The notes beneath the pieces are model-generated. The model saw only the letters and a program-made list of their open reading frames with translations. It was not told the origin of the DNA and made no database searches. Made by a program: the position numbers and the translations under genes. From contig JAJRWB010000008.1 of NCBI GenBank assembly GCA_024276995.1, positions 62,001 to 126,000 on the forward strand: a stretch of DNA of 64,000 bases. Direction: 5' to 3'. Source of the DNA: Candidatus Eiseniibacteriota bacterium. Its GTDB lineage: Bacteria > Orphanbacterota > Orphanbacteria > Orphanbacterales > Orphanbacteraceae. Below are positions 9,441 to 49,574 of the stretch, one piece after another. Every line of letters begins with the position of its first letter. Positions within the stretch are counted from its first letter, which is position 1.

Positions 9441-11353
9441 TCTCCCACGTGATCGGCACGGCGGGCCATATCGACCACGGGAAGACGACCCTCGTCCGTG
9501 CCCTCACCGGCCACGATACCGATCGCCTGAAGGAAGAGCGGGAGAGGAAGATCTCGATCGATCTCGGTTTCGCGCCGCTCACACTCCCTTCCGGTATGCG
9601 CGTCGCCGTGGTCGACGTGCCCGGCCACGAACGATTCGTGAAGAACATGCTCGCCGGTGTGGGGGGGATCGACGCGGTCCTTTTCACCGTCGCCGCCGAC
9701 GAGGGGGTGATGCCCCAGACGGCGGAGCATCTCGAGATCCTCAACTTTCTCGGTGTGGAGACGGGTGTGGTCGCCTTGACGAAGTCGGATCTCGTGGACG
9801 AGGAGATGCTCGAACTCGCCGCCGACGACGTGACCACCGCCTTCGCCGAAACGACTCTGCGCGACGCGCCCGTGATTCCCTGTTCCGGCGAAACGGGCGA
9901 CGGCGTTCCGCTCGTTCTCGCGGCGCTCGAGAAGGTCCTCCGGCAGGCACCCCCCCGCCGGACGGCCGACTGGTTCCGCCTGCCGGTCGACCGGGTCTTC
10001 TCGTCCCGCGGGTTCGGTACGGTGGTGACCGGCACCGTCTGGTCGGGCGATGTGAAGGTGGGGGACAGGCTCTCCCTTCTCCCCGGCGGGAGCGATGTGC
10101 GCGTGCGGAAGGTCGAGGTGTTCCACGAGGAAGTGCCGAGCGCCGGGAGCGGGCAGCGCACCGCCCTCGCCCTTCACGGCGTCTCGTGCGAGGAGGTGAC
10201 CCGGGGGAACCTCCTCGCCACGCCCGGCGTCCTGACCGCAACCCACATGGTGGACGCGAGGCTGCGCCTCTCCCGGAGCGCGAAGCCGCTCACCCCCCGG
10301 AAGAGGATCCGTTTTCATCACGGCGCGTCGGAGATCCTCGGCCGCGTCGTCCTTCTCGATACGATCGAGATCGAACCGGGTGGGGAGGGGCTCGTCCAGT
10401 TCCGTCTCGAATCACCCGTCGCCGTGGCGGCCGGGGACCGGTTGATCGTCCGCTCGTACTCCCCGGCGCGTACGATCGCCGGGGGACGGGTGATCGACGC
10501 GTTGCCGCCGAAAAGGAAGAGCCGCCGCCCGTCGGACCTCGCTTTCCTCGGGGTTCTCGAAAAGGGGGATCGGCGCAACGCGGTGAAGGAGGTGCTTCTC
10601 GCGTCGCGCTCCGCCGGCAGCGACGTGGTCGCCCTGGCGAAGAGATTGCAGGAGACGCCCGGGGCGATGCGCGCCCTGCTCGAGGAGATGGAAAGCGACG
10701 GCGTGCTTCGCTTCATCGGGTCGTCGGCGGTGCTCGTCGAGACAATGACGGCGCTGCGGGCCGAAGTGGGCGCGCGGCTCGAGCGGGCGCTTCGGGAGGA
10801 TCCGCTCAACCCGGGGCTCCCCCGGGAGGATGTCCGCAAGGGGCTTTCGAGGGAGGTCGATCTTTCCCTTTTCTCGGAGCTTCTCCGGATGATGAGCTCC
10901 GCCGGAGAGATATCGGTGCAGGGCGATCTCCTCTTGCACGGCGCGGGAGGACTTCCGGCGGAAGCGGAAAAGGCGGCCGGCGCGATCGACGCGCTCTTGG
11001 AGGAGAAGAGATTCGTCGCCCCGTCGATGGAGGAGATCGCCGCCGTCTCCGGCATCGAGGGAAAGAGCCTGACGAAGACGATCGACCTGCTCGTCCGCCT
11101 CGGCAAGGTGGTGAAGATCACGCCTTCTCTCGTCTACAGGAAAGAGGAGATCGCCGAAATGGCTGAAATGGTGCGACAGAGGCTCGCGCGGGACGGCTTT
11201 CTCGATATCGCGGCATTCCGGGAACTGACGGGGCTGTCGAGGAAATACTCGGTGCCCATCCTCGAATACTTCGACCGTGAAGGGATTACACGAAGAGAAG
11301 GCGACCGGAGACTCCCGGGCCGCACGGCCGCCTCGACGGAGGAAAGAGACTGA
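9437..11353 (+). CDS. selB: Selenocysteine-specific translation elongation factor SelB
   Basis: SelB delivers Sec-tRNA(Sec) to the ribosome at UGA codons followed by a SECIS hairpin. The 638-residue protein has GTPase motifs G1 GHIDHGKT (10-17), G3 DVPGH (60-64) and G4 TKSD (115-118). The switch region lies in DRLKEERERKISIDLGFA, the SelB form of the EF-Tu GITI segment. Two EF-Tu-like beta-barrel domains follow, and then about 250 residues of winged-helix repeats (for example APSMEEIAAVSGI and FLDIAAFRELTGLSRKY), which bind the SECIS RNA. It is coupled to murA (4-bp overlap) and to the next gene. selA, selC and selD are not in this window. Its presence supports reading the TGA at 45334 as selenocysteine. 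Confidence 0.96.
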   Translation: MISHVIGTAGHIDHGKTTLVRALTGHDTDRLKEERERKISIDLGFAPLTLPSGMRVAVVDVPGHERFVKNMLAGVGGIDAVLFTVAADEGVMPQTAEHLEILNFLGVETGVVALTKSDLVDEEMLELAADDVTTAFAETTLRDAPVIPCSGETGDGVPLVLAALEKVLRQAPPRRTADWFRLPVDRVFSSRGFGTVVTGTVWSGDVKVGDRLSLLPGGSDVRVRKVEVFHEEVPSAGSGQRTALALHGVSCEEVTRGNLLATPGVLTATHMVDARLRLSRSAKPLTPRKRIRFHHGASEILGRVVLLDTIEIEPGGEGLVQFRLESPVAVAAGDRLIVRSYSPARTIAGGRVIDALPPKRKSRRPSDLAFLGVLEKGDRRNAVKEVLLASRSAGSDVVALAKRLQETPGAMRALLEEMESDGVLRFIGSSAVLVETMTALRAEVGARLERALREDPLNPGLPREDVRKGLSREVDLSLFSELLRMMSSAGEISVQGDLLLHGAGGLPAEAEKAAGAIDALLEEKRFVAPSMEEIAAVSGIEGKSLTKTIDLLVRLGKVVKITPSLVYRKEEIAEMAEMVRQRLARDGFLDIAAFRELTGLSRKYSVPILEYFDREGITRREGDRRLPGRTAASTEERD

Positions 11354-45117: not shown

Positions 45118-45180
45118 TAGCCGGCATTGTGACTTTCGGCGTTTTTCGCGATGATTCTCCTGGAGGAACGGGACGACACT

Positions 45181-46590
45181 ATGAGAAAAATAACGGCATT
45201 CTTCACCCTCGCGTGCGCGCTCGGCCTCGGCCTCGCCGGCTGCAGCGCCTTCGGCCTTTTCGGTCCAAAGGGACCGCGCACGGTTACACTTTTCTTCTCG
45301 AACGAGACGATCGGCGAACTGAAACCGTGCGGGTGACACTCCAAGGGCAAAGGCGGGCTGGCCCGGCGGGCAGGCGAGATCAATGCGAAGCGTGCGGAGA
45401 ATCCGGTGGTGGTGCTCGATCTGGGCAACTGGACGACGCGGAAGAACCCCTCCTACGGATACAGCATGCCGGTCACCATGGAGTGTCTCGAACGGATGGG
45501 GTACGACGCCCTCGCCATCGGGGATAAGGAAGTGAGCCTCGGGCTCGCGAGGACCGACACCCTTCTCAAGCAGCACAACCTGATCGGGTTGAACGCGAAC
45601 ATCGTTTCGGACAGCACCGGTGAGCCGCGGTTCACCCCTTACCGGGTCATCCGGGCGGGTGATCTGAAGGTGGGTGTCACGTCGGTGATCGGCGGCGACG
45701 CGGTGATCGCGCGGACGATCAAGGAGCGGGAAGGGATCCGTGTGGAGGACCCGATCGAAACAGGTCGGGCGATGCTCGAGCAGCTCCGGCGGAAGAAGGT
45801 CGATCTCACCGTGCTGATCGCCCATACAGGTCTAAGGAAAGGGGAGATTCTCGCCGACTCCCTCTCCGGCTACGACGTCGTCCTGATCGGCCACGGCGGC
45901 AATATCATGGCGGAGCCGAAAAAGGAGAAAGGTGTCATCCTCGCCGCCGCCGGGTCGCGCAGCAACCAGCTCGGCTACCTCACCCTCGTGGTGGAAAACC
46001 GGACGGTGACGAACTTCGAAGGGAAGTCGTGGCAGCTCCAGCAGAACGACGGTCCCGTGGACGAGGTGGTCAAGGACCTGACGTGGACTCATCTCGAACT
46101 CGACGAGAACGGGGTGCGGATCAAGAAGAGAAAGACGAATCCGGCGGAGAGTACCGACAGCACGGCTGCGACCGACGGCGCCGACGCGGCGAAGACGCCT
46201 CCGCCGACGAAGGCGTATCTGGGAAACGACAAGTGCCGGGCGTGTCACGCCGACATCTACGCGTCGTACATGGAGACGCCCCACGCGAACGCCTTCGAGG
46301 TGATCGCCAAGAGCGAGGAGAATTGGCAGAAGGGCGAATGCTGGAACTGCCACGTTCTCGGCTACGGGGAGCCGACGGGCCACTCCACCACGGAACTCCA
46401 GCCCGACCTGTGGAACGTCCAGTGCGAGTCGTGCCACGGCATGGGCACCGAGCACAGCCGCGGCGGCGAGATGGCGAAGGTCACCGAGGAGACGTGCACC
46501 GCCTGCCACGTCGAGAAGTGGAGTCCCGGTTTCGACTACGCCTCGGCGCTGAAAAAGGTGGCGCACAAGTCGAAGCGCACCTGGAACTGA
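45181..46590 (+). CDS. Predicted selenocysteine-containing multiheme cytochrome lipoprotein with nucleotidase-like domain
   Basis: One 469-codon gene interrupted only by an in-frame TGA at codon 52 (45334-45336), read here as selenocysteine. Codons 1-21 are a lipoprotein signal with a perfect LAGC lipobox (Cys21). The N-terminal domain resembles UshA/5'-nucleotidase-type metallophosphoesterases (FSNETIGELKPCG-Sec-HSKGKGG, then LARRAGEI, VVVLDLGNW, ALAIGDKEVSLG, LIAHTGL, LIGHGG), but the usual DxH and GDxxD metal motifs are degenerate. The C-terminal part has four CxxCH haem sites: CRACH (about 352), CWNCH (387), CESCH (415) and CTACH (439), like cytochrome c554. Relatives that I recall have PCGC where this has PCG-TGA. 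ATG 45181 lies 14 bases after GGAGG. SelB is encoded at 9437. A frame-breaking mutation is the alternative. Confidence 0.85.
45354..45365 (+). promoter_or_regulatory. Candidate bacterial SECIS hairpin downstream of the in-frame TGA
   Basis: CGGG (45354-45357), loop CTGG and CCCG (45362-45365) form a small GC-only hairpin that begins 17 nt after the TGA, within the 16-37 nt range described for bacterial SECIS elements. If only three base pairs form, the loop GCTGGC has a G in its first position, as required. The stem is short, so this is suggestive only. Confidence 0.4.
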
Positions 46591-47360: not shown

Positions 47361-49574
47361 GTGAGTGGTATCCATTTCTCTCTCCAGCGAGGGAACCCCC
47401 TTCTCCTCCTCGCGGCGCTGGCGGTCGCCCTCCTCCTGGCGCTTTGGTTCTACAGGAGCACACTCCCCCCGCTGAAGCGATCGTCTCGCCGCCTCCTCGC
47501 GCTCCTCCGTTTCGGGTCGATCGGTCTCCTTCTTTTCCTCCTATTCGATCCGCTGGTTACCTTCGAGACGGTGCGCAGCGTCAAGCCGAACGTGGTGGTT
47601 CTCGTCGACCGAAGCGCGAGCATGGGCATCCGGGAGAGCGACCCGCGCACCGGCGATCCGCTGAGCCGCGCCGAAGAGGCGGAGGCGATTCTCGAGAAAG
47701 GCCCCCGCTCGCTCCGAAAGAAGCTCTCCCGCCGCTACGATCTTTCGGCGTTCGCCTTCTCCGATCACGTCGAACCGTACACGAAGGATGCACGGATGGG
47801 AGACCGCACCAATCTCGCGATGGCGATGACCGAATCGATGAACGCCGAGTGGGAAAGGGGGGTCGATGCTTTCATCATCCTTTCGGACGGCATCATCAAT
47901 GCCGGCCGCGATCCGGTGCGGCTCGCCCGCGAACTGGCGGTGCCGGTCTTTCCGATCGCCATGGGAAGCGCCCTGCCGGCGAGGGACCTGTCGATCCAGC
48001 AGGTGCTCGCCAACAAGATGGTCTACGTGAACAGCCGCGTGTCGGTGGAGATCGCGGTCCGGGGAAAGGGTTTCGCCGGAAAAAACGTACCGATCCGGAT
48101 TCTCGAAAAGGGGGAACCGGTGGCCGCCGGCGAAATCGCGTTCCGGGAGAAACGGGAGAGGCGCACGGTGACGCTCGATTTCCCGATGAGTCGCGAGGGA
48201 ATCCACCGTTACGAGGTCGAGATTCCTCTCCAGGAGGGGGAACAGGTATCGGAGAACAACCGGTTCCTCCTCACCATGGAAGCGGTGAAGGAAAAGGTGA
48301 AGATCGTCGTCCTCGCCGACCGGCCGGGGTGGGATTTCGCCTTTTTCAAGAGGGTCCTCGATCACGACGCGAACCTGGAGGCGGACTGCTTCGTTCAGCG
48401 GAAGGACGGCCGCCCCGGGAGGGTGGACGGCCCTTCCGGACCGGCGTTCCCCTCGACGGCGGAACAGCTCGCCCCGTACGACCTCGTCGTGGTGTTCGGC
48501 ACGCCGGCGGCGCTTTCGCGGGAGTGGGACGGCGCGATCGACTCGTTCGTCCGCCGTCGAGGCGGGTCGCTGATCTTCTTCGCCCCCGATCCGCTCACCG
48601 GGCCGATTCCCGACCGCTTCGCCGAACTCCTCCCGGTGAAGCTCGTCCGGGGAAGGGACGGGTACTCCACCGCGCCGTTTTCGGCGAAAATCACGGTGCG
48701 CGGAAAGAGCCATCCGATCGTGAGGATGAACCGGGACGAGAAGAAGAATCTCGCCCTCTGGGAGGAACTCCCCCCGCTGCAGGGCGTCAACATCGTCGGT
48801 GCGCCCAAGGGCGGTTCCACCGTGCTCGCACGCCATCCCACCCTTCGCGCCGAGGGGCGCGACCTCGCACTGCTCGCCCTCGCCGGCGCCGGGAAGGGGA
48901 GCGTCTTCTTCGCCAACGGCTCGGGTTACTGGAACTGGGATTTCCGCATGTGGGGCGCCGGCCGGACGAACCGGACGTACGAACAGCTCTGGTCGAATGT
49001 GATCCGGTGGATGGTGGCGCGCGGCGGTTTCCGGAACGTCTCGGTGCAGCCGGAGAACCTGACGTACAACCGCGGCGACGAGGTGGTTCTTCGCGGGCGG
49101 GTGATGGACACCGCCCTTGAGCCGGTGAGCGATGCCCGTGTGGAAGTGACTCTCACCTCCGCCGACGGCGACGAGCGCCGTTTCTTTTTGCAGCCTTCCT
49201 CCGGCGAGGCGGGCTCGTTCGAGAAGTCCCTCGGATCCCTGCCCCCCGGCCGGTTCCACTTCACCGCCACCGCCGTGCGGCGGGAAGAGATGCTCGGCGA
49301 GGATAGCGGCGAGTTCACCGTGAGCGAGTTCAGCGCCGAGTTTCTCGAAACGGAGCGGAACGATCCCCTTCTGGCGTCGATCGCCGCGGCCGGCGGGGGA
49401 CGGATGATCGACGCCGGCGAACTCGACCGATGGGACGGGGACCTGGGCCTCCAGATGCGAAGCGTCAGCAGCCGGAGGGAACGGGAGATCTGGAACTCCC
49501 CGTTCTTCTTCTTCGCCCTTATCGCCCTCCTTTCCACCGAATGGCTCTTCCGGAAACGGAGGGGGCTTTCGTAA
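47361..49574 (+). CDS. VWA-like membrane protein with GATase1-like domain
   Basis: A 737-residue membrane protein of unknown function. Two N-terminal hydrophobic helices (LLLLAALAVALLLALWFY and LLALLRFGSIGLLLFLLF) are followed by a von Willebrand A-type domain with the MIDAS motif in LVDRSASMGIRES and IILSDGIINAGRDP. The middle has a class I glutamine amidotransferase-like part (PYDLVVVFGTPAALSREWDG, GGSLIFFAPD) and a beta-sandwich segment follows. One C-terminal helix (FFFFALIALLSTEWLF) ends in basic residues. Related proteins in Bacteroidota and Gemmatimonadota occur in BatA/MoxR-type clusters. It starts at GTG 47361. Confidence 0.75.
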   Translation: MSGIHFSLQRGNPLLLLAALAVALLLALWFYRSTLPPLKRSSRRLLALLRFGSIGLLLFLLFDPLVTFETVRSVKPNVVVLVDRSASMGIRESDPRTGDPLSRAEEAEAILEKGPRSLRKKLSRRYDLSAFAFSDHVEPYTKDARMGDRTNLAMAMTESMNAEWERGVDAFIILSDGIINAGRDPVRLARELAVPVFPIAMGSALPARDLSIQQVLANKMVYVNSRVSVEIAVRGKGFAGKNVPIRILEKGEPVAAGEIAFREKRERRTVTLDFPMSREGIHRYEVEIPLQEGEQVSENNRFLLTMEAVKEKVKIVVLADRPGWDFAFFKRVLDHDANLEADCFVQRKDGRPGRVDGPSGPAFPSTAEQLAPYDLVVVFGTPAALSREWDGAIDSFVRRRGGSLIFFAPDPLTGPIPDRFAELLPVKLVRGRDGYSTAPFSAKITVRGKSHPIVRMNRDEKKNLALWEELPPLQGVNIVGAPKGGSTVLARHPTLRAEGRDLALLALAGAGKGSVFFANGSGYWNWDFRMWGAGRTNRTYEQLWSNVIRWMVARGGFRNVSVQPENLTYNRGDEVVLRGRVMDTALEPVSDARVEVTLTSADGDERRFFLQPSSGEAGSFEKSLGSLPPGRFHFTATAVRREEMLGEDSGEFTVSEFSAEFLETERNDPLLASIAAAGGGRMIDAGELDRWDGDLGLQMRSVSSRREREIWNSPFFFFALIALLSTEWLFRKRRGLS

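Follow-up and report, generated by a model that had tools for sequence, protein, structure and literature searches.

A divergent member of the UshA-like PCGU selenoprotein family, with a tetrahaem cytochrome domain, in a Candidatus Eiseniibacteriota bacterium

UshA-like selenoproteins (COG0737) with a CxU motif have been catalogued since 2008, when 76 selenocysteine (Sec) and 92 cysteine (Cys) sequences were counted in marine data (PMC2398784), and they are listed again in reviews of 2022 and 2026 (PMC9312934, PMC13188914). The table of the latter cites the NCBIfam family NF041198 (UshA_like_PCGU) and a second UshA-like selenoprotein family, NF049981 (PMC13188914). Members of NF041198 carry PCG(U/C) and then GGLARR at the N-terminus, and combine an UshA-like domain with a C-terminal haem region, which is included in the 519 positions of the profile. 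We searched the literature for a demonstrated function of the UshA-like PCGU selenoprotein family and found none. Here, we describe a gene lying in a stretch of 64,000 nucleotides of contig JAJRWB010000008.1 (hereafter, the window) that is a divergent new member of this family, and not a new kind of selenoprotein. The original prediction had hinted at a selenoprotein type not described before; this proved mistaken, since the family is already in NCBIfam and in the three publications cited above. Judging from its sequence, the window protein very probably belongs to the UshA-like PCGU family as a selenoprotein that is secreted and lipid-anchored, a lipoprotein.

The open frames on the two sides of an internal TGA (codon 52) had been predicted to be in the same phase and to join into one meaningful protein, and this is what we observed: when the TGA is translated as Sec, the frame is open from its ATG to the TGA stop codon that closes the gene (Table 1). 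A signal peptide with a lipobox before the TGA, and four CxxCH haem sites after it, were likewise found where expected; the haem region matches the Cytochrome_C554 model, and residues G20, C21 and S22 show no variation in three orthologs. The motif stands in the context PCGUHSKGKGGLARR.

Table 1. Positions in the window of the selenoprotein gene, its features and selB
Feature	Position	Strand	Remarks
selB, selenocysteine-specific elongation factor	9449..11311	+	G000:C69:71449-73311; 359 bits, cut-off 242
GGAGG, possible ribosome-binding site	45162..45166	+	14 bases 5' of the ATG, spacing rather long
Full selenoprotein gene	45181..46590	+	469 residues including Sec52; best family match NF041198, E 5e-66
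Lipoprotein signal peptide, lipobox LAGC, lipidated Cys21	45181..45243	+	read directly from the translation
UshA/SoxB-like domain, degenerate metal site	45277..46083	+	residues 33-301, best stretch of the NF041198 match; also SoxB model, 5'-nucleotidase structures
C-G-U motif; Sec52 codon TGA 45334-45336	45328..45336	+	TGA in all family orthologs, Cys in distant relatives
Candidate SECIS, GGC-GGGCUG-GCC	45352..45363	+	slot conserved across the wider family
Alternative, stronger hairpin	45357-45375	+	a few bases downstream of the candidate SECIS slot
Cytochrome c554-like domain (Pfam PF13435)	46231..46440	+	residues 351-420, E 9.5e-14
Haem site 1, CRACH	46234..46248	+	residues 352-356
Haem site 2, CWNCH	46339..46353	+	residues 387-391
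Haem site 3, CESCH	46423..46437	+	residues 415-419
Haem site 4, CTACH	46495..46509	+	residues 439-443

The window protein shares with NF041198 the PCG(U/C) motif and its Sec/Cys position, the GGLARR stretch, the UshA-like domain and the tetrahaem C-terminus; two stretches of the profile are matched, and homology over the full length is certain. Across family members, the haem part matches positions 341-519 of the profile in the same frame, with four CxxCH sites. The tetrahaem fusion is therefore part of the known family. The score of the window protein (223 bits) and those of the clade formed with its orthologs (209-241 bits) nevertheless fall below the curated cut-off of 275, so that we regard this clade as a divergent sister subfamily rather than as a member under the curated rule. 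Because of this low score, the NF041198 model would leave the window gene as a truncated cytochrome. In the phylogenetic tree the window clade is separate with full support (100/100), and it is seen only in the taxonomic family of the window genome; with it, a conserved subfamily is added to a known selenoprotein family. Mapping the Sec/Cys state on the best tree gives six changes, at least two of which are forced by the starred branches, implying that Sec and Cys were exchanged more than once. NF049981 also combines an UshA-like domain with Sec, but its motif is CxxU (PMC13188914) and not CxU, and the window protein matches it weakly (E 1.8e-9; 37 bits, where the cut-off is 140).

Outside the family, the best profile match is SoxB (E 1.4e-17), with nucleotidases also matching weakly (NCBIfam), and the nearest solved folds are those of 5'-nucleotidases and SoxB. 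AlphaFold, given three sequences, produced a poor model (mean pLDDT 48.5), which was used only for this fold match of the N-terminal part. The domain had been called nucleotidase-like, which holds for the fold but not for the site. The two-metal ligand set of 5'-nucleotidases and UshA (D, H, D, N, H, H, H) is incomplete: E42, I44, N83, D115, K116 and G240 stand in place of the usual D, H, D, N, H and last H. H215 and H238 are retained, and both vary across the wider family. Nucleotidase activity is thus unlikely, as the phosphoesterase site has lost the greater part of its metal ligands. Compared with the UshA and CD73 5'-nucleotidases and the SoxB thiosulfohydrolase, the window protein shares the fold of its N-terminal domain, but it has lost most of the metal ligands and gained a haem domain and Sec; the C-terminal part of those enzymes has no match in it. 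The haem domain matches the sequence of cytochrome c554 (PDB 1bvb, E 6.8e-7), from which it differs in that it makes up just the C-terminal portion of a larger selenoprotein.

We propose that SelB and tRNA-Sec would decode the internal TGA as Sec, placing a C-G-U motif in an UshA/SoxB-type domain that is followed by the tetrahaem cytochrome c554-like domain. The UshA/SoxB-type domain would no longer act as a nucleotidase; the C-G-U pair would form a redox centre of the selenol/selenenylsulfide type, and electrons would pass between this pair and the haems outside the cytoplasm. Taken as a whole, an UshA-like PCGU selenoprotein with a C-G-U redox centre coupled to the haems is likely to be the best explanation of the locus. 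The redox mechanism itself, suggested by the motif and by the domain fusion, is put forward tentatively, as a possibility that may well be wrong. More tentatively still, the protein might be a selenium-dependent oxidoreductase for which a former metallophosphoesterase domain provides the scaffold, with electron exchange between the C-G-U motif and the tetrahaem domain, and with a substrate outside the cytoplasm. Alternatively, the CxU could be a metal ligand or a structural site of a SoxB-type enzyme that still hydrolyses sulfur compounds, the haems merely accepting the electrons released afterwards. The SoxB profile match, the presence of SoxB structures among the fold matches and the two retained histidines would fit such an enzyme, but the six replaced ligand positions and the variability of H215 and H238 across the wider family argue against it, and scans of the gene neighbours for adjoining sox genes found none. 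We consider this alternative unlikely, and retain the C-G-U redox centre as the preferred reading.

The internal TGA almost certainly codes for selenocysteine, as originally predicted; the support comes from the alignment column in which TGA and Cys alternate, from the in-frame substitution pattern and from the Sec genes of the genome. The TGA is kept at the position of codon 52 in orthologs from six genomes within this taxonomic family, which show 54-63% identity where they are full length. Cys at this position in relatives had been set beforehand as a test of the prediction, and it was found in 20 of the 54 rows of a single alignment column, the other 34 having TGA; the Cys forms, seen in more distant members, are CGC, CDC and CSC. 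For codons 26-51, before the TGA, five orthologs differ by 86 synonymous versus 45 nonsynonymous changes in the frame of the gene, whereas the counts in the other two frames are 13/121 and 5/126. The substitution pattern is consistent with the gene frame only, and this on either side of the TGA. Given these counts and the conserved TGA, the segment upstream of it is translated in the gene frame, across separately assembled genomes.

The same data bear on the idea that the TGA is a true stop, in a pseudogene or through a sequencing error, with a cytochrome part that is dead or starts at the GTG at 45406. This start lies in the open frame after the TGA and gene callers would pick it, and the assembly also has selA broken into two frames. 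However, an identical TGA recurs in four additional genera whose genomes were assembled separately, purifying selection acts in frame on the segment 5' of it, and initiation at 45406 would truncate the conserved domain and drop the signal peptide. Contradicted by the TGA in relatives and by the in-frame substitution pattern, this highly improbable reading was rejected. An altered genetic code, with TGA decoded as another amino acid such as Trp or Gly, is more improbable still and was also rejected: several genes of the genome have an in-frame TGA, but the residue in the aligned column is Cys and neither Trp nor Gly, the genome has tRNA-Sec, selB and selD, and the window gene itself terminates with TGA.

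SelB had been predicted to be encoded in the same window, and its gene was identified there well above the model cut-off (Table 1). A check of the whole genome for Sec genes, also called for in advance, added a tRNA-Sec (71 bits, anticodon TCA), selD (380 bits; G000:C49:5158-6081, L090) and selA (G000:C12:38616-39982, L089). The latter is spread over two reading frames, the longer piece scoring 410 bits; whole copies are present in four close relatives, and the split may reflect either a mistake in the assembly or a defect that arose recently. The selD gene, with an in-frame TGA of its own, is probably another Sec gene. The prediction that the TGA should go with sel genes was largely borne out for selA among 43 genomes with family members: selA scores above its cut-off in 22 of the 24 with a Sec copy, versus 5 of the 19 with Cys copies only (Fisher p 1.2e-5, counted by genome, a value that is too good because related genomes are not independent). 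The direction of the association is clear. Both Sec genomes that lack selA above cut-off come as fragmented assemblies, of 830 and 340 contigs, and a strong tRNA-Sec is present in one of the two.

A hairpin that could serve as SECIS is readily recognised in distant relatives; in the window clade such an element is likely, though ambiguous. In distant Sec members, the hairpin has 5-8 pairs and a GGUCUU or GGUCUG loop, and its start lies some 10-15 bases 3' of the TGA; the stems vary while pairing is kept (CUUGGC/GCCAAG, GUCUGGC/GCCAGAC, GGUGGGG/CCCCGCC). In the window clade, the family slot pairs only GGC with GCC and competes with the second hairpin. When folded alone, the window sequence does no better than its shuffles. 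Conservation of the GGLARR codons made column shuffling over all Sec rows an unfair null; we compared Sec with Cys members instead, the latter sharing the protein motif. The mean contiguous pairing run in the slot is 3.9 for Sec versus 1.3 for Cys members; total pairs, out of nine, are 5.1 versus 4.5, a difference that is not significant.

In the taxonomic family of the window genome, orthologs recur with lptD upstream, and with sir2 and a 737-residue protein downstream; the neighbours of family members in other lineages are unrelated to this set. No functional clue was obtained from these gene neighbours. The gene of the 737-residue protein (window 47361-49574), kept downstream in relatives, has no Pfam or NCBIfam match.

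The same genome has a second UshA-like PCGU Sec gene (G000:C41:27280-28711; L076, 3281-4711, minus strand). Like the window gene, it has Sec in PCGU and a haem domain, at 30% identity, but it falls in a separate clade and its 297 bits exceed the NF041198 cut-off. It sits near a gene for a TPR/sigma-54-type regulator. Within the window clade, a third Sec paralogue was observed (L077, G006:C156; L078, G003:C35). It has PCGU but is devoid of haem sites, and the hydrophobic stretch at its N-terminus lacks a lipobox. Two or three UshA-like Sec genes per genome suggest that the reaction they catalyse is important there. Elsewhere in the family, two members stand next to each other as a tandem pair, CGU being found in one and CGC in the other (L085, G057:C36:10133-18994). 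Finally, one Sec member (L083, G002:C28) has PVGU, the Cys partner of the CxU being lost, which would bear on the need for a selenenylsulfide.
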